Source: Halogeometricum limi (GTDB lineage: Archaea; Halobacteriota; Halobacteria; Halobacteriales; Haloferacaceae). From it: a stretch of DNA of 64,000 nucleotides. The position numbers were made by a program, and so were the translations under genes. Positions 10,994-31,639 of the stretch are shown here, one piece after another (position 1 is the stretch's first letter; every line of letters starts with the position of its first letter). The DNA is taken from positions 186,001-250,000 of the forward strand of contig NZ_FOYS01000002.1 of assembly GCF_900115785.1 (NCBI RefSeq), given 5' to 3'. A model generated the notes under the pieces. The model did not search any database and had not been told where the DNA came from. It saw only the letters and a program-made list of their open reading frames with translations.

Positions 10994-11656
10994 TCACGAC
11001 GCGTCGTAGGTGAGGAGGACGCCGTCGTCGATTCGCTCGACGCCGGTGAGTTCGAGCGACGGAAACGACTCGACGAACCCCTCGCCGTCGGCCAGCGTCG
11101 GGGCGTCGCGGCCGCCGAGGACGAGGGACCCGACGTACAGCGAGAGTTCGTCCACGAGGCCCGCCTCGAACAGCGAGAAGATGACCTCGCCGCCGCCTTC
11201 GACCATCAGTCGGTCGATACCGCGACGTTCCAGTTCGGCGAACGCCGAGGGAAAGGAGACACGAGACTCGCCCGCGACGACGACAGTCGCGCCCGCGGTT
11301 TCGAGCGCCGAGCGTCGGTCGTCGGGCGCGGATTCGCTCACGAGGAGGTACGTCGTCGCCGCGTCGTCGAGGATGCGAGCGTCCGTCGGCGTCCGCGCGC
11401 GCGAGTCGGCGACGATGCGGGCCGGGTGGGCGGGGCGTCCCGCCGCCGCCCTCTCGGTGCGGAAGTCGGCGTCGTCGACCGTCAGGTGCGGGTCGTCCGC
11501 GAGGACGGTGCCGACGCCGACGAGGACGGCGTCGCTGTCCGCGCGGAGCCTGTCGACGCGAGCGAAGTCGGCTTCGCCGCTTATCTTCACCTGTTCGCGC
11601 CGCCGCGTCGACAGTTTTCCGTCGACGCTCGTCGCGGCGTTGACGACGACGTGCAT
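10994..11656 (-). CDS. arfC: 2,5-diamino-6-ribosylamino-pyrimidinone 5'-phosphate reductase (riboflavin synthesis)
   Basis: This 220-residue protein is a stand-alone RibD C-terminal reductase of the archaeal type. It reduces the ribosyl side chain of the pyrimidine intermediate with NAD(P)H before deamination in archaeal riboflavin synthesis. Supporting motifs are NAATSVDGKLSTRRREQVKIS at the start, DSDAVLVGVGTVLADDPHLTV (about 41-61) and the nucleotide-binding VEGGGEVIFSLFEAGLVDEL near residue 150. The length is normal. It is divergent from the GT4 gene, with 84 bases between them. Confidence 0.9.
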   Translation of the reverse strand: MHVVVNAATSVDGKLSTRRREQVKISGEADFARVDRLRADSDAVLVGVGTVLADDPHLTVDDADFRTERAAAGRPAHPARIVADSRARTPTDARILDDAATTYLLVSESAPDDRRSALETAGATVVVAGESRVSFPSAFAELERRGIDRLMVEGGGEVIFSLFEAGLVDELSLYVGSLVLGGRDAPTLADGEGFVESFPSLELTGVERIDDGVLLTYDAS

Positions 11657-11707
11657 ACACGTCCGTGGATAGCCCGCGGGAAGCGAATTTCGGTCGACGG
11701 ACGGGAG

Positions 11708-11715
11708 TTATATAT
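11708..11715 (+). promoter_or_regulatory. TATA box of the GT4 glycosyltransferase gene
   Basis: TTATATAT lies 26-33 bases before the ATG at 11741. This spacing predicts a nearly leaderless transcript and argues against using the in-frame ATG at 11714, which lies inside the TATA box. Confidence 0.65.
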
Positions 11716-11740
11716 GCCTCCGTGGTATTTCCTGACAGTA

Positions 11741-12790
11741 ATGCCGCCGAAAGTGTTGATGCTGGGCTGGGGTTTCCCGCCCAACGTAAGTGGTGGTCTC
11801 GACACCCACGTTGGAGAGATGTTCGACGGGTTGCAAGCGCGCGGCGTAGATATCGAACTGGTCCTCCCCGCGGAGTACGCGCCGGAGGACCGAGACGGAA
11901 TACACGGCGTTCCGACGGGTGAAGGCGACATCATCACCCGCATCGGACGGCTCAGTTCGGCGTTCGCCGAACACGCGCAGGACGCCGACATCGTCCACAC
12001 GCACGACTGGTTCGGCTACGGCCCCGGGTCGCGCGCGAAGTCGAACGCGGACGTGGAGTGGGTGACGACGTTCCACTCGCTGTCGTCGGACCGGAACCTC
12101 GACCCACCGAAGCGCGAAGTCGAGACGGAACGCCGAATCGCCGAACGCTGCGACCACCTCCTCGCGGTGAGCGAACTCACGGCGGGACGGGTCAGAGACC
12201 TCTACGGCGGCGACCCCGAGGTCATCTACAACGGCTTCTCCGAGTGTGAGACGACCGGCCGGGATTTGAAAGAGGAGTTGGACATCGACGGTAGCATGCT
12301 CTTTTTCGTCGGGCGACACACCGACCAGAAGGGCATCTCTCACCTCGTCTACGCGATGGAGAAACTCCGCCGCGACGACGTGACGCTCGTCGTCGGCGGG
12401 TCGGGCCACCTGACGGCGCAACTGAAGAAGTTCGCCGAACTCCTCGACGTCGAAGACCAGATAGAGTGGGTCGGCTACATCCCCGAGGAGGCGCTCGGCG
12501 ACTACTACGCCTCGGCGGACCTGTTCGTCTCCCCCTCGCTGTCGGAACCGTTCGGAATCACCATCACCGAAGCGCTCTCGGCGGGCACGCGCGTCGTCGC
12601 CACCGAGAGCGGCGTGAACGAAGTGCTCCCGGACGACTGCGTCATCGAAGTCGAACCCGCGTCGGACTCGCTGGCCGACGGTATCGACTACGGCCTCTCG
12701 CTCGAGGGGCCGCCGGAGTACGACCCCGTCACGTGGGCGGACGTCGTCGACGACACCATCGACTTCTACGAGCGAATCGCCGGCGAGTAA
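11741..12790 (+). CDS. GT4-family glycosyltransferase
   Basis: A 349-residue glycosyltransferase with two Rossmann-like halves (GT-B fold). The N-terminal half begins VLMLGWGFPPNVSGGLDTHV, the usual glycine-rich acceptor-side loop. The C-terminal half has FVGRHTDQKGISHLV and the nucleotide-sugar site SLSEPFGITITEALSAG near residue 267-283, the E-x7-E motif of family GT4 retaining enzymes. It may act on a storage polysaccharide, compatible solute or surface glycan; glycogen-synthase-like GT4 proteins look similar, but the product cannot be decided here. An upstream in-frame ATG at 11714 overlaps the TATA box. Confidence 0.85.
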   Translation: MPPKVLMLGWGFPPNVSGGLDTHVGEMFDGLQARGVDIELVLPAEYAPEDRDGIHGVPTGEGDIITRIGRLSSAFAEHAQDADIVHTHDWFGYGPGSRAKSNADVEWVTTFHSLSSDRNLDPPKREVETERRIAERCDHLLAVSELTAGRVRDLYGGDPEVIYNGFSECETTGRDLKEELDIDGSMLFFVGRHTDQKGISHLVYAMEKLRRDDVTLVVGGSGHLTAQLKKFAELLDVEDQIEWVGYIPEEALGDYYASADLFVSPSLSEPFGITITEALSAGTRVVATESGVNEVLPDDCVIEVEPASDSLADGIDYGLSLEGPPEYDPVTWADVVDDTIDFYERIAGE

Positions 12791-26043: not shown

Positions 26044-26898
26044 ATGCACGGCCGCGCAGTCGCCCTCGGTGCCGGGACGGTTCTGAACGCACTCGCCACG
26101 GGCGTCGGGTCCGCGTTCGCTATCGACGCAGAGACGACTGCGACCGTCGAACTCGACGACACCGACGCGGTTCGCGGGTCGGTCGCCGAAGACGAGGACG
26201 CCGACACGCGCCTGATAGAGCGCTGCGTCGAACTCGCCGTCGAGCGATACGGCGACGACGACTACGGCGGCACCGTCCGCACCGAGAGCGACCTGCCGAT
26301 GGCCGCCGGGTTGAAGAGTTCCAGCGCCGCCGCGAACGCCGCGGTGCTCGCCACCGCGGACGCACTCGGCGTCGACCCCGACAGAGAGGAGGCGTGTCGG
26401 CTCGGAGTCAGAGCGGCCCGCGACGCGGGCGTGACGGTGACGGGCGCGTTCGACGACGCCTCGGCGTCGATGCTCGGCGGCGTGACGGTGACGAACAACG
26501 CCGAGGACGAACTGCTCTCCCGGGACTCGGTCGAGTGGGACGTCCTCGTCTGGACGCCCCACGAACGCGCCTACAGCGCCGACGCCGACGTCGACGCCTG
26601 CGCGAACGTCGCGCCGATGGCCGAACTCGTCGCCGAACTCGCCTTAGACGGCCGGTACGCCGAGGCGATGACGGTCAACGGCCTCGCGTTCTCGGCGGCG
26701 CTGGACTTCCCCACCGACCCCGCCGTGGAGGCGATGCCTCACGCGGCGGGCGTCTCGCTCTCGGGGACGGGACCGAGCGTCGTCGCCGTCGCGGAGAGTG
26801 AGAGCGGTGCGCTGGACCCCGTCCGCGACCTGTGGGGCGACCGACCGGGGGCGACGTGGCTGACGACGACGCGAAACGACGGAGGACGAATCCGATGA
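26044..26898 (+). CDS. aroK: Archaeal shikimate kinase (GHMP family)
   Basis: This 284-residue protein is the archaeal GHMP-type shikimate kinase, which phosphorylates shikimate in chorismate synthesis. The N-terminus MHGRAVALGAGTVLNALATG and the ATP loop LPMAAGLKSSSAAANAAV (about 86-103) are diagnostic, with ALSGTGPSV-type motif (LSGTGPSVVAV) toward the end. It overlaps the chorismate mutase start by ATGA, so the pair is an operon. Confidence 0.93.
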   Translation: MHGRAVALGAGTVLNALATGVGSAFAIDAETTATVELDDTDAVRGSVAEDEDADTRLIERCVELAVERYGDDDYGGTVRTESDLPMAAGLKSSSAAANAAVLATADALGVDPDREEACRLGVRAARDAGVTVTGAFDDASASMLGGVTVTNNAEDELLSRDSVEWDVLVWTPHERAYSADADVDACANVAPMAELVAELALDGRYAEAMTVNGLAFSAALDFPTDPAVEAMPHAAGVSLSGTGPSVVAVAESESGALDPVRDLWGDRPGATWLTTTRNDGGRIR

Positions 26899-27191
26899 CA
26901 CAGAACGAGACACGACCCGAAGAGATGGACCTGGACGAACTGCGCGAAGAGATAGAGGACATCGACCGCGGCATCGTCGAACTCATCGCGCGGCGGACGT
27001 ACGTCGCCGACACCGTCGCGCAGGTGAAAGCCGAGAAGGACCTGCCGACCACCGACGAATCCCAAGAGGAGCGTGTGATGGAACGCGCAGGAAAGAACGC
27101 GGCGCACTTCGAGGTGGACTCGAACCTCGTGAAGGCCATCTTCCGGTTGCTCATCGAGATGAACAAGGTAGAGCAGCGGGAAAGCAGGTAG
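26895..27191 (+). CDS. aroQ: Chorismate mutase (AroQ)
   Basis: AroQ converts chorismate to prephenate. The 98-residue all-helical protein shows the AroQ-type signature: MDLDELREEIEDIDRGIVEL, RRTYVADTV, KAEKDLPTTDESQEE and the active-site end helix ending MNKVEQRESR. It is fused to nothing and sits as the second gene after aroK. Its last 39 bases (from 27153) are mirrored by two diverged copies downstream, described under repeats. These suggest that the gene end may have been replaced by recombination. Confidence 0.92.
   Translation: MTQNETRPEEMDLDELREEIEDIDRGIVELIARRTYVADTVAQVKAEKDLPTTDESQEERVMERAGKNAAHFEVDSNLVKAIFRLLIEMNKVEQRESR
27153..27191 (+). repeat. aroQ 3'-end repeat, copy A (functional gene end)
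   Basis: These 39 bases encode I-E-M-N-K-V-E-Q-R-E-S-R-stop. They are the reference copy for two downstream repeats at 28450-28488 and 29450-29482, in the same orientation. Confidence 0.8.
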
Positions 27192-27564
27192 TAGGGACCC
27201 GGACGTCCCGTTTACGCACCTGTATCTACGGAGCTAACGAGTACAACATCGGCCTCGAGTCACTGGACGGGACCCTCCTGCTGGGCCCCGACGCAACCGT
27301 CGGTCGGTCGACTGCCTGACTCATCGACTGGCGGGGCTCGACTGGCGACTCACGAGTCAGGGACGCCAGCGGTATCGAGTCCCTGCCGAGGGGCCTCGAC
27401 AAGACGGTCGGATTGCGACCGTATTCCGTTCAATCAGATGTCGTTCAGTGGCCAACATCCCCTGACGCAGAATCGCTGTTCGTGGACAACCGCGAGCGGC
27501 ACGCGACGACGAGTTTCGATTTCGTACACGAACTGATACAACCCTGGAGCCTCCCTAGTAGTGT
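27192..27564. other. Intergenic region without a recognised gene, aroQ to hydrolase
   Basis: No intact gene is seen. Just after the aroQ stop is a GGGAC/GTCCC hairpin-like pair (about 27194-27209). Short open stretches, such as the frame reading NIGLESLDGTLLLGPDATVG around 27246-27308, end in stops and look like decayed coding sequence. Base composition is less strongly GC than in the core genes around it. Confidence 0.5.
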
Positions 27565-28350
27565 ATGGAGATGAATCACGTCTGTCGCGGGTCCGGTGAA
27601 CCGTTACTCTTGATCCACGGACTGGGCGGGAGTTGGCGGACGTGGACCCCCATCCTCGACGGGTTGGCCGCCGAACGGGAAGTCGTCGCAGTGGACCTCC
27701 CGGGTCACGGGGAGACGCCGGCGCTCTCCGGTGAAGTATCCATCGACACCCTTGCCAATGCCGTCACTTCGTTTCTCGATGCGAACGACCTCGCCGGCGT
27801 CGACGTGGTCGGCAACTCGATGGGAGCGCGACTCGTCCTCGAACTCGCGCGCCGCGGGGAGGTCGGCACAACCGTTGCACTCGATCCCGGTGGGTTCTGG
27901 AAGGGGTGGGAGCGGTACTTCTTCTACGCGACGCTCGCCCCCTCGATACGTCTCGTTCGCCTCCTCCAACCCGTGATGGACCGGCTGATGGGGAGTGCCG
28001 TCGGTCGGACCATGCTCCTGATTCAGCTCTCGGCACGGCCCTGGGACCTCTCCGCCGAGGTCACACGGGAGGAGATGCGGACCTTCGCCGACTCGCCGTC
28101 GTTTGACGAACTACTTCGTCGGTTGGCGTTCGGCCCGAGCCAACCGGGGACGGACTCCACACCGGGATCGGTCGTAATCGGATGGGGGCGCAAGGATCGA
28201 GTTACCCTGCCCAGGCAGGCAAAACGCGCGCTGGACAGGTTCCCCAACGCTCAGTTGTACTGGTTCGAGGACAGTGGGCATTACCCTCATTGGGACGCTC
28301 CCGACGAGGCGACCGAACTAATCCTTACGAGCACTGCGAACGACGAGTGA
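27565..28350 (+). CDS. Alpha/beta hydrolase
   Basis: A 261-residue alpha/beta-hydrolase fold protein with LLLIHGLGGSW (oxyanion loop), the nucleophile elbow VVGNSMGA (Ser85), a late acidic position in GWGRKD (near 211) and the histidine in EDSGHYPHWD (near 238). The triad looks intact. The cap between about 125 and 190 is helical and hydrophobic. The substrate is unknown. It lies alone in the 1.3-kb segment between aroQ repeat copies A and B, which suggests acquisition with that segment. Confidence 0.85.
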   Translation: MEMNHVCRGSGEPLLLIHGLGGSWRTWTPILDGLAAEREVVAVDLPGHGETPALSGEVSIDTLANAVTSFLDANDLAGVDVVGNSMGARLVLELARRGEVGTTVALDPGGFWKGWERYFFYATLAPSIRLVRLLQPVMDRLMGSAVGRTMLLIQLSARPWDLSAEVTREEMRTFADSPSFDELLRRLAFGPSQPGTDSTPGSVVIGWGRKDRVTLPRQAKRALDRFPNAQLYWFEDSGHYPHWDAPDEATELILTSTANDE

Positions 28351-28721
28351 ACACAACTGTTCGGACGCGAGAGAGATGAACGATCACCAACTACCACAGA
28401 AGGGATACTTGGATACCGGAAAAGTACACGCGACCGTGTTACGTGAGTTATTGAACTGAACAAGGCCGAGCAACGCGAGTCTAGATAGCACTAAACGGAT
28501 GTGAGTCGGCGTTTCATTCCCGATTCAGATGTGGTGTTCCGGTTTGGGCCTTCCTCTGGTTCTGACCGATGATTGGCCAAGGATTAACGTCGGACGCCGG
28601 CATCGATTACGTACTCGAATCGGAGGGCGTGGTGGCGAATTTCTCCTTTACGGGCCTCTTCGTCGGACTCGTGGTTGTAGTCTCGACTCACAATGTGGTC
28701 CGGCAGTGAGTCGAATCAAAC
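28351..28721. other. Intergenic region holding aroQ-end repeat B
   Basis: No intact gene is supported. The stretch contains repeat copy B at 28450-28488 and is AT-richer than neighbouring genes. A 27-codon frame at 28376-28459 (ending VLRELLN) runs into the repeat in a different frame and is not supported as a gene. Confidence 0.5.
28450..28488 (+). repeat. aroQ 3'-end repeat, copy B
   Basis: Read in the frame starting at 28450 these bases encode I-E-L-N-K-A-E-Q-R-E-S-R-stop, ten of twelve residues identical to the real aroQ end. Only 27 of 39 bases match copy A, because most codons differ synonymously. That pattern is what a diverged coding end would show. Matching stops just upstream of the IE codons. 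Confidence 0.8.
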
Positions 28722-29108
28722 TCACTCCTCGTCGGTCGGTTCCAACTGGATTCTCGACACGTCGATGTCTTCGTAGTCTTTCTCTGACGAGAGTACGTCC
28801 ATGCCTCGCGTCTCCGCTGTCGCCGCGTGGAACGCATCGAACGGTGTCATCCCTTCGTCGTAGTAGTTGACTCCCTTCAGGACGATTTGTTTCTCTTCTT
28901 CGTCTCGCACTGGGACGAGTTCGAGCAGGTTCGCCACCAGCGGAACGAAGTCGAACTCGTAGCGTTCGCGGGCGAGGACGAGTTCGAGATACGAGAACGC
29001 CGACGTTTCGACCTCGTATTTATCGAGTGCTTCTTCCGTCGACCCCTGCAACCAATCTGAATCTTTGGCAAGTGCGAGTAAGAAGTCCGTCTCGACGTAC
29101 ACCGTCAT
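28722..29108 (-). CDS. PIN-domain ribonuclease toxin (VapC-like)
   Basis: This 128-residue PIN-domain protein has the acidic metal-site residues expected of VapC toxins: Asp8 (YVETDFLLAL), Glu42 (FSYLELVLA), Asp91 (TPFDAFHAAT) and Asp104, followed by SSEKDYEDI. VapC toxins cleave tRNA or rRNA when the antitoxin is lost. The start overlaps the stop of the upstream AbrB-like gene by ATGA, the usual antitoxin-toxin order. The pair sits between aroQ-end repeats B and C. Confidence 0.88.
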   Translation of the reverse strand: MTVYVETDFLLALAKDSDWLQGSTEEALDKYEVETSAFSYLELVLARERYEFDFVPLVANLLELVPVRDEEEKQIVLKGVNYYDEGMTPFDAFHAATAETRGMDVLSSEKDYEDIDVSRIQLEPTDEE

Positions 29109-29350
29109 CTATCGCTATCCTTCTCTCCGGCGTTGGCTTTCGCCTCCGATTCGACGTTTTCTCGAATCTCCTCGATGGACGCATCACGGAGGCCACCTGC
29201 CGCCTCTTGGACTGCAGCGAGCGGGTCGTCTGCGACCGGGATGAGTTCGATTCTATCTTCGTACGTCACGATGTGATACTTCTCACCGTACTTCTTCCGT
29301 ACCTCTTTGGGGATGTACAGTCGCCCCTGTCGGTCCGTCTCTGCTGACAT
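29105..29350 (-). CDS. AbrB/SpoVT-type antitoxin (VapB-like)
   Basis: This 81-residue protein carries an AbrB/MazE swapped-hairpin DNA-binding start (TDRQGRLYIPKEVRKKYG, then YHIVTYEDRIELIPV). The acidic helical C-terminus (EEIRENVESEAKANAG) should wrap around the PIN toxin. I chose the ATG at 29350 because it gives the normal antitoxin size and leaves the palindrome at 29384-29408 upstream. It probably represses its own operon. Confidence 0.85.
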   Translation of the reverse strand: MSAETDRQGRLYIPKEVRKKYGEKYHIVTYEDRIELIPVADDPLAAVQEAAGGLRDASIEEIRENVESEAKANAGEKDSDR

Positions 29351-29383
29351 AGGATAGACTACGATGGCACGAGAGTTGAACGT

Positions 29384-29408
29384 TACCACTAGATATATCT
29401 CTATGGTA
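29384..29408. promoter_or_regulatory. Palindromic TATA region / possible autoregulatory site of the toxin-antitoxin pair
   Basis: AGATATATCT (29391-29400) is a perfect palindrome flanked by TACCA (29384) and TGGTA (29404), which are inverted to each other. It lies 34-58 bases upstream of the antitoxin ATG at 29350 on the minus strand. It could be both the TATA box and the operator bound by the AbrB-like protein; the operator part is inference. Confidence 0.45.
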
Positions 29409-29449
29409 CGGAGTGTGACTCGTGACAACCCATGATAGACTTCACTGTC

Positions 29450-29482
29450 CTGAACAAGGCCGAACAGGGTGAGAACCGATAG
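29450..29482 (+). repeat. aroQ 3'-end repeat, copy C
   Basis: These bases encode L-N-K-A-E-Q-G-E-N-R-stop, matching copy B at eight of ten residues and copy A at six of ten, plus the stop. At the DNA level it matches copy B at 25 of 33 bases. It follows the toxin-antitoxin promoter and marks the right edge of the repeated block. Confidence 0.7.
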
Positions 29483-29595: not shown

Positions 29596-30198
29596 ATGAG
29601 CGAGTCAGGGGAACGCTCTCACGGGTATACCCCGAGAGACTACGACGAAGATAGTGCGGCGGACGAGGCGTACCAGACGTGCGTGTCGTACGCCGTCGAA
29701 CACACCCCTATCCGCCGCGAAGACACTGTCGTCGACGTGGGGACCGGAACCGGAATCGTCGCCTTCGAACTCGCACCGAACTGCGAACGCGTCCTCGGGC
29801 GCGACGTCAACGACGAGTGGCTTCGATACGCTCGGCAGAAGGCGACGGAGAGAGGCGTTGAGAACGTCTCGTTCGGCCACGGGTCGTTTCGGGAACCGAA
29901 CGTGGACGAGGCGGTGGACGTGGTCGTCGCGAGTTACGCGCTCTACATGGCGTACGACGAGGGCGGCGAAGAGGAGTTGCGGGCCGCAATCGAAGGCATC
30001 TCGTCGCTGAATCCCCGCCATCTCGTCGTCGCCGACAAGATGTTCTTCGGGCCAGCGGAACCCCGCGGCGACTACGAGAGACTCCCGCAGATGGGAACTG
30101 TCGCGAATCTGCTCGCCGATGCGGGCTTCACGCTCACGGACGTGGAAATCGTCAGTGGCTCCGTGGGCGTCCTCGTCGCTTCTCGAACGACTGGATAG
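29596..30198 (+). CDS. Class I SAM-dependent methyltransferase
   Basis: A 200-residue methyltransferase with SAM motif VVDVGTGTGIVAFEL (about 44-58), acidic motif LGRDVNDEW, and VDVVVASYALYMAYD as motif IV region. It begins MSESGERSHGYTPRDYDEDSA. Family assignment beyond class I is not possible, and the substrate is unknown. It is the first gene to the right of aroQ repeat C. The next 276 bases (30199-30474) hold no recognised gene. Confidence 0.83.
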   Translation: MSESGERSHGYTPRDYDEDSAADEAYQTCVSYAVEHTPIRREDTVVDVGTGTGIVAFELAPNCERVLGRDVNDEWLRYARQKATERGVENVSFGHGSFREPNVDEAVDVVVASYALYMAYDEGGEEELRAAIEGISSLNPRHLVVADKMFFGPAEPRGDYERLPQMGTVANLLADAGFTLTDVEIVSGSVGVLVASRTTG

Positions 30199-30474
30199 GC
30201 AGACGGACAGGCCACAGCATACGCGGCGACGACGTTCCCTCGCTGGCCCCCTTCCGTGGGAGTTCCGGAATCCGGTCGAGGATATGCACGAGGCGAGCGA
30301 AGGTGCGCTCGAACGACTGCCGCGCCGTCGCCCGCTCTCACGACCGAACGCACGTTCGCGAGTCTCTCTTCCTCGTCCGCCGACTCCGCTTCGTCGCCGC
30401 CCCGTGAGTCGTCGCTCGCTCCCGCTACGCACGTATTTGTCCCCGCGCGTCCTCTCTCTAGTGGGGGTGTGAGT

Positions 30475-30903
30475 ATGCAACCGAAAGCGACTCGAAGCGT
30501 CGAGCAAACCGTCCGAGCGTACGTCGGACTCTGGAACGACAGGGCGTACGACGATATCTCGGACCTCGTCTCGACGTCGTTCGTCATGGTCGAATCCGGT
30601 GCACCGGGGAGAGAAGTACGCGGCAGAGACGGCCTGAAGTCGCTCGTCGAGCGCTACGCGACGGGGTTCCCCGACTTCGAGTTGACGATAGACGAACTCG
30701 TCGTCGGCGACGGCGTCGCGATGTTCGAAGGTACGTTCCGCGGGACGCACGACGGCGTGTTCGACGGCGTTGCGCCGACCGGACGGCCCGTCGAAATCGG
30801 GTACGCCGACGCGCTGACGGTCGAAGACGGGCGAATCCAGCGCGAACGGGTGTACTACGACCCGAGGGAGATGAGCCGTCAGGTTGGTCGCGAGAACGAC
30901 TGA
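30475..30903 (+). CDS. SnoaL-like (NTF2-fold) protein
   Basis: This 142-residue protein has an NTF2-like cone fold signature: VRAYVGLWNDRAYDDISDLV at the start, GRDGLKSLVERYATGFPDFEL in the middle and FEGTFRGTHDGVFDGVAPTG later, the pattern of SnoaL-like ester cyclases. Many such haloarchaeal proteins are of unknown use. The ATG at 30475 follows a short GTGAGT stretch. A second SnoaL-like gene lies 0.7 kb downstream. Confidence 0.82.
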   Translation: MQPKATRSVEQTVRAYVGLWNDRAYDDISDLVSTSFVMVESGAPGREVRGRDGLKSLVERYATGFPDFELTIDELVVGDGVAMFEGTFRGTHDGVFDGVAPTGRPVEIGYADALTVEDGRIQRERVYYDPREMSRQVGREND

Positions 30904-31010
30904 CCGGAGACGGGTGCGGCCGACCGGTCCCAGAGCGACTCCGCTTTCGGACCCGATCTAACACGTATCAGTCTCTCTTGATGCCGAGACGATGCGTTCT
31001 CTTCTTTGCG

Positions 31011-31520
31011 ATGGCACGAGCACAGTACCCAGGAGACGAGGGCGCGGTTCCGTTCGTCCGCCGCGCCGACGAGGGGGACCGGTTCAACATGTTCGGCGGC
31101 CTGACGTTCGTCAAGGCCACCGGCGAGGAGACGGCCGGTGCGTACGGACTCATCGAACAACGGGCGAACGCCGGAATGCAGACGCCGTTGCACGTCCACC
31201 ACGCCGAGGACGAACTGTGGGTCGTCGTCGACGGCCGCCTCTCCGTCCACGTCGACGGAGAGACGATGGACGTGGGGCCGGGCGACGTCGCGTTCGGACC
31301 TCGTGGAAAGCCGCACGCCTTCCGCGTCGAGGAGGACGCGAGCAGATACTACATCGTCCGGAACGCGGGCGGCGAGTCGTTCTTCGAGGCCGTCGGCGAC
31401 CCGGCACACGACCTCTCGCTTCCGGACCCGACCCCGACAGACGCGCAACTCGAACGGCTGAACGACGTGTTGGAGACGTACGAACTGGAGATTCTCGGGC
31501 CGCCGCCGTTCGAGGCGTAG
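31011..31520 (+). CDS. Cupin-domain protein
   Basis: This single-domain cupin (169 residues from ATG 31011) has the metal ligand pattern PLHVHHAEDELWVV, followed by GDVAFGPRGKPHAFRVEE. It is likely a metal-binding isomerase, dioxygenase or regulator-like protein. An in-frame ATG at 30981 and a TTG at 30978 would add residues (PRRCVLFFA) unlike the family. There is no signal peptide. Confidence 0.82.
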   Translation: MARAQYPGDEGAVPFVRRADEGDRFNMFGGLTFVKATGEETAGAYGLIEQRANAGMQTPLHVHHAEDELWVVVDGRLSVHVDGETMDVGPGDVAFGPRGKPHAFRVEEDASRYYIVRNAGGESFFEAVGDPAHDLSLPDPTPTDAQLERLNDVLETYELEILGPPPFEA

Positions 31521-31639
31521 TCTCCCGAACGGGACGTTCTCCCGCCCAAACGAGTGGAGGTAGAGTGATGACGGCGACTAACGTACGTTTACTGATAGCT
31601 CGTGCCACGCGCGAGGGCTGTCGATGCAGGGGTGAGAAC

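Follow-up and report, generated by a model that had tools for sequence, protein, structure and literature searches.

A VapBC toxin–antitoxin pair probably carried by a mobile gene cassette behind haloarchaeal aroQ

Integrative elements with attachment sites at the 3' ends of genes, tandem islands included, carry a copy of the gene end, so that the gene survives integration, and they usually encode their own integrase. The dif and pdif sites consist of two 11-bp inverted arms around an overlap of 6–8 bp, and neighbouring pdif sites alternate in orientation. In Acinetobacter, small modules, which are often toxin–antitoxin (TA) pairs, are found at such short recombinase sites (PMC13141974 and PMC6449649, both in part). 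Archaeal elements integrate in the 3' regions of protein genes (PMC6563490, in part), and integrons include chromosomal ones rich in TA pairs as well as archaeal ones (PMC9668308, in part).

The 64-kb stretch of DNA analysed here (the window; features in Table 1) carries a vapBC pair. It resembles described type II VapBC systems in that a PIN-domain toxin and an AbrB-like antitoxin are encoded by overlapping genes, antitoxin upstream of toxin, with an inverted repeat upstream; what is unusual is its cassette context. Judging from the flanking repeats, the pair makes up the second cassette in an array that begins at the aroQ 3' end. We consider it highly probable that a mobile gene cassette carries VapBC here and that it entered behind aroQ by conservative site-specific recombination.

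The aroQ arrays look like an archaeal counterpart of bacterial gene-capture systems. As with the Acinetobacter pdif modules, the units are small, often carry TA pairs, appear shuffled, lie at short sites with inverted arms and would be served by a recombinase in trans. Unlike pdif sites, the aroQ-end copies are all on one strand in the loci fetched, and the target is the end of an archaeal protein gene that would be restored by each cassette. With integrons the arrays share a single platform, mostly small cassettes, fixed orientation and frequent TA cargo. They differ from integrons in that the platform is the end of a housekeeping gene, in that no integrase gene was found in the arrays with tyrosine recombinases of the window's own genome as queries, and in that attC-like folding is absent, the 112 sites having a mean z of −0.46 compared with −0.30 for 110 cassette interiors. 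They resemble integrative elements in that the unit carries a copy of the gene end. Literature searches, subscription papers and preprints aside, found no description of cassettes or integration at haloarchaeal aroQ; three haloarchaeal terms did not occur in the main text of PMC9668308, and haloarchaeal and chorismate terms had no match in PMC2958812.

Table 1. Positions of the features discussed, numbered from the first base of the window.
Feature	Positions	Strand	Basis
aroQ (chorismate mutase); 3' end is the proposed recombination target	26895–27191	+	Pfam CM_2, 66.3 bits
Repeat A, the aroQ 3' end; proposed crossover core TGAACAA at 27160–27166	27159–27191	+	
Cassette 1 (1264 bp); its 99.7% identical counterpart in Halogranum rubrum (L039) also comes first behind aroQ	27192–28455	+	
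Alpha/beta hydrolase gene, cargo of cassette 1	27565–28350	+	Pfam Abhydrolase_6, 89.6 bits
Repeat B, aroQ-end copy at the boundary of cassettes 1 and 2	28456–28488	+	
Cassette 2, 961 bp, VapBC, antisense orientation as in relatives	28489–29449	−	
vapC, PIN-domain toxin	28722–29108	−	Pfam PF01850; acids conserved in 42 homologs
vapB, AbrB-like antitoxin	29105–29350	−	TIGR01439, below cut-off; adjoins vapC in relatives
Block that reads GGTAAGATTCT in 23 of 42 relatives, diverged in the window	29377–29388	−	Alignment and count, 42 vapB upstream regions
Inverted TACCA/TGGTA, operator candidate; AGATATATCT centre unconserved	29384–29408		42 vapB upstream regions
Arm at the right end of cassette 2; by eye similar to the consensus GTATGGTGGATTTCAGCTAC	29428–29449	+	Downstream copies aligned
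Repeat C, aroQ-end copy that closes the VapBC cassette on the right	29450–29482	+	
SAM methyltransferase gene, probable cargo of a third cassette	29596–30198	+	85% identical protein in congener L186

The existence of the VapBC pair was confirmed, and the sequence agrees with the first description. The initial annotation had reported a PIN toxin with intact active-site acids whose gene overlaps that of an AbrB-like antitoxin by ATGA. The overlap is present, and VapC matched the Pfam PIN model (PF01850) with 34.4 bits (cut-off 23.6). Among 42 VapC homologs the acids were kept at E6 (42), D8 (40), E42 (41) and D91 (42), and position 109 was acidic in 41. The first acid of the PIN site is usually Asp; here it is Glu. 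The label given to the antitoxin is fair but weakly founded, since VapB scored 24.1 bits against the AbrB model TIGR01439, below the cut-off of 28.3, and had no match in a Pfam search. By sequence, the best match of VapC to a solved structure had an E-value of only 0.41, and defence-system models gave no match to three proteins of the window.

Each of the three aroQ-end copies of the window is 33 nt long. They scored about 45 with a profile among whose source sequences were copies B and C themselves; the next-best score on their own strand was 4.2, and the opposite strand reached 11.3. A degenerate pattern that does not depend on this profile matched, with up to three mismatches, these three places only in the 3.6-Mb genome, and the reversed control gave one match. 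The three copies are therefore far above chance. Across the order the pattern was present in 165 of 195 genomes and at least twice in 55 of 195, as counted from the match table, with no match for the reversed control; with up to two mismatches, all 39 of 39 selected genomes matched, compared with four matches in total for the reversed control. In the loci fetched around aroQ, copies scoring at least 22 lie at or downstream of the aroQ end, and none with such a score was found on the strand opposite aroQ (75 + 40 loci fetched). Single copies far from aroQ occur in at least two genomes (G051 and G102). Copies away from aroQ were seen in two genomes at L182 5934–6243 and L183 5418–5450; in the former (the G051 stretch), a copy and a cassette-type right-end arm stand beside a MazF gene, with no aroQ match in 12 kb. 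Sites of this kind are also present on haloarchaeal plasmids (NZ_CP084320.1, NZ_CP031307.1, NZ_CP149790.1, NZ_CP101460.1 and others), including 160–400 kb plasmids of several Natrialbaceae, which carry aroQ and the shikimate kinase gene where inspected.

Downstream of repeat C, a profile scan of 30196–31600 found no right-hand aroQ-end copy. In the congener L186, the methyltransferase is the only gene between a repeat and aroQ, which it follows directly. This suggests that 29596–30198 is a truncated third cassette; probably its right end has been lost beyond recognition. Behind aroQ, each of the five genomes examined in the window's genus carries one or more additional copies, in one case a degenerate copy (score 23.9), and the content between the copies differs among the five.

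Homologs of VapC (68–97% identical) were collected from 40 loci, fetched as 20-kb stretches except for one of 8989 bp. aroQ was present within the stretch in 32 of them, VapC being antisense to aroQ in every one, and vapB was found beside vapC in relatives. A right-hand aroQ-end copy scoring at least 22 bounded 26 of these 32 loci; the other six had no copy with that score, some showing a degenerate one only. Two (L076 and L103) of the eight loci without aroQ in the stretch keep an aroQ-end copy, at the right end, and at six loci with off-aroQ VapBC copies no other repeat pair plainly bounded the module.

In 105 distinct aroQ loci (107 minus the duplicates L149 and L152), 112 intervals between successive copies were found in 80 loci, and a TA family member was present in 69 of the 112, both proportions overstating prevalence because loci had been chosen for carrying VapC (L070–L109) or at least two copies (L121–L160). 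Loci L171 and L182–L190 are outside these counts. The intervals span 136–5555 bp, with a median unit below 1 kb. In the named scan, where loci were taken by similarity to the window's aroQ (L032–L065; a methanogen with a weak aroQ match, L066, was left out of the 35), 16 of 34 loci had at least one downstream copy scoring at least 30, and 10 of 22 cassettes held a TA gene. The TA families were VapBC1, MazF/PemK, RHH-RelE/ParE, PIN_2, PIN with VAPB_antitox and other PIN genes, each with a fixed orientation apart from a single RHH-RelE cassette. Other cargo comprised the alpha/beta hydrolase and an HTH_10 regulator and, named only from the look of the sequence or from the record, a methyltransferase, an FAD enzyme and an ATPase. 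The orders V–A, M–A, Q–A, A–R, R–P, M–P and A–R–M were seen, and on an annotated plasmid of Haloterrigena alkaliphila aroQ is followed by four TA pairs (V–A–A–P), with aroQ-end copies at aroQ and between the pairs. Certain lengths recur: RHH-RelE cassettes were 713–720 bp in 7 of 11 single R+ cassettes, and MazF cassettes, which range from 680 to 2949 bp, were 680–681 bp in 3 of 13; some cassettes reach 4–5.5 kb. VapBC cassettes were 740–752 bp in 10 of 27 and 914–923 bp in 8 of 27, the spacing on the vapB side being nearly constant between these classes and that on the vapC side differing.

The uniform orientation of VapC could also mean that VapBC is ancestral behind aroQ and vertically inherited, the repeats having arisen by local duplication. 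The correlation of VapC with the host gene was significant (Mantel r 0.34, p 0.001), and vertical descent may account for part of the distribution. However, cassette and host genes are decoupled, mean identity being 0.88 for VapC and 0.69 for shikimate kinase (Spearman 0.14, n = 34), and MazF pairs reach 0.97 identity where the host gene is at 0.62. Other cassettes occupy the same site, and the variable content in the window's genus likewise speaks against inheritance in place, which we regard as very improbable.

Mobility of the unit as a cassette was examined at the points where identity changes between related loci. Cassette 1 of the window is 99.7% identical to its counterpart in Halogranum rubrum over exactly 1264 bp, compared with 80% for the DNA of aroQ and shikimate kinase; the rows of the cassette comparison from which these values come are not mutually independent. 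Near-identity sets in at TGAACAAGG in repeat A and does not extend past CTGAACAAGG in repeat B; it thus starts and stops in the repeat core TGAACAA(GG). These switches, on both sides, fit a site-specific recombination that swaps in a new AroQ C-terminus, and an identity of this degree indicates that the 1264-bp unit, which is without integrase, was shared recently. A second pair consists of a site occupied by an RHH-RelE cassette in Haloferax denitrificans (ATCC 35960) and an empty one in Haloferax sulfurifontis. There are three differences in the 175 bases up to ATGAACAA; past ATGAACAA the left copy of Haloferax denitrificans has nine differences from the empty site in the 30-base tail, and its right copy departs from the tail of the empty site at only 3 of 30 bases, with the flank of the empty site coming next. 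In 49 pooled pairs, which are not mutually independent, identity at −20 to −9 was 0.57 at left copies and 0.91 at right copies, and beyond the copy (+33 to +44) it was 0.71 and 0.33, respectively. Conservation at the right ends reaches as far as the core, and past the copy the sequence is random; left flanks are unconserved. As core positions 1–7 are near-invariant in all sites, the pooled pairs alone cannot place the crossover.

Haloarchaea recombine freely, and homologous recombination following mating or transformation might spread whole blocks of aroQ plus cassette, with the repeats serving as short homologies and no site-specific enzyme involved. The repeats would offer 33 bp of partial homology. 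One genome (G027; L136 and L137) has two aroQ loci, the plasmid one with an ATPase cassette of 5.5 kb, which shares 99.98% identity over 3948 bp with a cassette in the genome of another family (G163, L141); in this pair the aroQ region itself is 89% identical, as homologous exchange of a block would allow. It is less readily reconciled with identity that switches inside a core of 7–10 bp in both the Halogranum and the Haloferax comparisons, with the divergence of the aroQ sequence directly upstream in the former, or with the many cassette right ends that have their own arm, unrelated to aroQ. We therefore judge homologous recombination to be distinctly improbable as the explanation.

The copies themselves carry traces of past coding. 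Relative to the aroQ tail of their own locus, the 112 copies show 145, 105 and 484 changes at codon positions 1, 2 and 3; an in-frame stop ends 103 of them, and the motif xNK[VAI][EH]QR is kept in 78. The excess of third-position changes, the stops and the kept motif make the copies look like former working aroQ ends. A casposon- or transposon-like insertion that duplicates its target would also leave each unit flanked by direct repeats, as observed, and casposons do use the 3' ends of protein genes (PMC6563490, in part). The repeats would then be target-site duplications, against which it speaks that, of the 112 copies, just one matches the present aroQ tail of its locus exactly; on average copies match their own tail at 25.9 of 33 positions and all tails at 24.7 of 33. 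Insertion moreover replaces the tail in the Haloferax pair, with no copying of it. The probability of such an origin is close to negligible.

Under the preferred reading, insertion by conservative site-specific recombination, an incoming cassette would enter at the aroQ 3' end by strand exchange in or beside TGAACAA, flanked by imperfect inverted arms as in the sites of tyrosine recombinases. It would bring a new AroQ C-terminus, typically LNKVEQRESR-stop, and push the old end downstream, where this would form the next repeat. Since each insertion would replace the tail and displace the old one, arrays of uniform orientation would grow while aroQ stays intact. We infer that a tyrosine recombinase acts in trans and that cassettes pass through a circular intermediate. 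TA cargo would persist since its loss harms the cell, and this would damp loss of the array; stabilization of the array by the toxin is plausible. The proposal of a selfish module between repeats B and C was right and reaches further than first put forward: these repeats resemble the recombination sites of a cassette array that is widespread. What can be read directly in the DNA are the repeats, the arrays, the orientation of each family, the exchangeable order, one cassette-sized transfer, one tail replacement and the points where identity switches; recombination is the proposed process behind them, and the array is probably mobile.

The anatomy of the site is consistent with this scheme. Cassette right ends share an arm near GTATGGTGGATTTCAGCTAC, which 38 of 70 distinct ends match at 11 or more of 17 positions, and a second type is found in 12. 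Complementarity around TGAACAA, compared with a sliding null, was 4.61 of 11 at cassette right ends (null 2.64, sd 0.32, maximum 3.27) and 6.51 at aroQ sites (null 2.77, sd 0.94, maximum 4.76). The signal is modest: the best fit was a 5-bp overlap at the same centre (5.4), and an unrelated centre reached 4.24. Imperfect inverted arms flank TGAACAA, above the null yet far from perfect, and this arrangement points to a tyrosine recombinase as the class of enzyme. A hairpin suspected by eye after the stop codon was unsupported by the folding comparison.

No intact recombinase was found in the 112 cassettes, either by tblastn with tyrosine recombinases of the window's own genome (nine ORFs from its integrase loci, giving seven distinct proteins, with one duplicate and one out of frame) or with a profile made from them, which had no match; the enzyme therefore probably acts in trans. 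Two tyrosine recombinases can be put forward, both as candidates only. The first (G000:C4:79216-80265), single-copy and Xer-like by eye, is present in 70 of 79 genomes and in all 64 of those of high quality. The second, of the L117 type, is present in 129 of 195 genomes. By its coordinates it lies hundreds of kb from aroQ or on another contig in many genomes, and about 9 kb downstream of aroQ in L053, L057 and L156. In all three genomes fetched from one genus it is intact and closer (L188 6058–7137, L189 6508–7587 and L190 8583–9521): in L188 and L189 it follows a MazF cassette, about 1.8 kb past the right-hand copy, and in L190 it stands about 2.2 kb past a bare aroQ end, with no second aroQ-end copy beyond it in any of the three. 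This vicinity is what makes it the second candidate.

A decayed tyrosine recombinase was observed in Candidatus Halobonum tyrrellensis (L049, about 11485–11993), with a right-end arm on one side and, on the other, a weak aroQ-end copy (25.4) outside the set of 112. Possibly it is left over from the family of enzymes that act on the site. The fragment would also be expected if the cassettes were remnants of larger integrative elements, each once with its own integrase and since reduced to TA genes, and so would the cassettes of several kb and the variable size of TA cassettes such as those of MazF. This reading overlaps with the cassette explanation, because the site would be the same. In comparison with integrase-carrying elements, the units here are short by their median, and the queries above found no integrase in them, apart from the decayed fragment of L049. 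The recurrence of compact sizes in the VapBC, RHH-RelE (7 of 11) and MazF cassettes, and the recent sharing of a near-identical 1.26-kb unit without integrase between the window's genome and Halogranum rubrum, argue against reduction from larger elements, which we consider rather unlikely.

The wider proposal, to which we give even weight for and against, is that Halobacteria have a gene-cassette capture system of their own, distinct from integrons and dif modules. It would use aroQ as docking site and a recombinase in trans, possibly the near-universal Xer-like one, to insert circular cassettes at TGAACAA, each re-supplying the AroQ C-terminus; TA cargo would help to hold the array, and cassettes would pass between genera and families of the class. 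If cassettes move in this way, haloarchaea, a group known for extensive gene exchange, would have a dedicated platform for acquiring small genes, paralleling integrons. This would explain the clustering of diverse TA pairs behind aroQ, would offer a defined site for genome engineering of halophiles and would make the capture of archaeal gene cassettes directly testable with a short DNA site. As to a viral carrier, pattern scans of viral contigs and phage collections returned nothing haloarchaeal. By eye, the viral matches L110 and L161–L170 resembled chance matches in bacterial phages; L161–L170 have a GC content of 0.41–0.60 and no match to aroQ, cassette or integrase queries.

The region upstream of vapB was compared in 42 relatives. 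It had been described as carrying AGATATATCT flanked by inverted TACCA/TGGTA, serving as TATA box and operator at once. The arrangement is exact in the window (TACCA at 29384–29388, AGATATATCT at 29391–29400 and TGGTA at 29404–29408), and TACCA-N8-20-TGGTA occurs there only once in 64 kb; 10-bp palindromes are common in the window, 113 compared with 62.5 expected for equal base use. Of the 42 upstream regions, that of the window alone has AGATATATCT, and its role as a conserved TATA box or operator was rejected; in this alignment the palindromic TATA centre is a local feature of the window. The inverted TACCA/TGGTA was present in 25 of 42 by the strict pattern, and ACCA/TGGT in 33. The flanks of the palindrome are thus kept in more relatives than its centre, and the inverted pair is a reasonable putative operator. 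Between the inverted pair and vapB, GGTAAGATTCT is exact in 23 of 42 relatives and found with at most one mismatch in 29; this block is a possible core promoter of vapBC.
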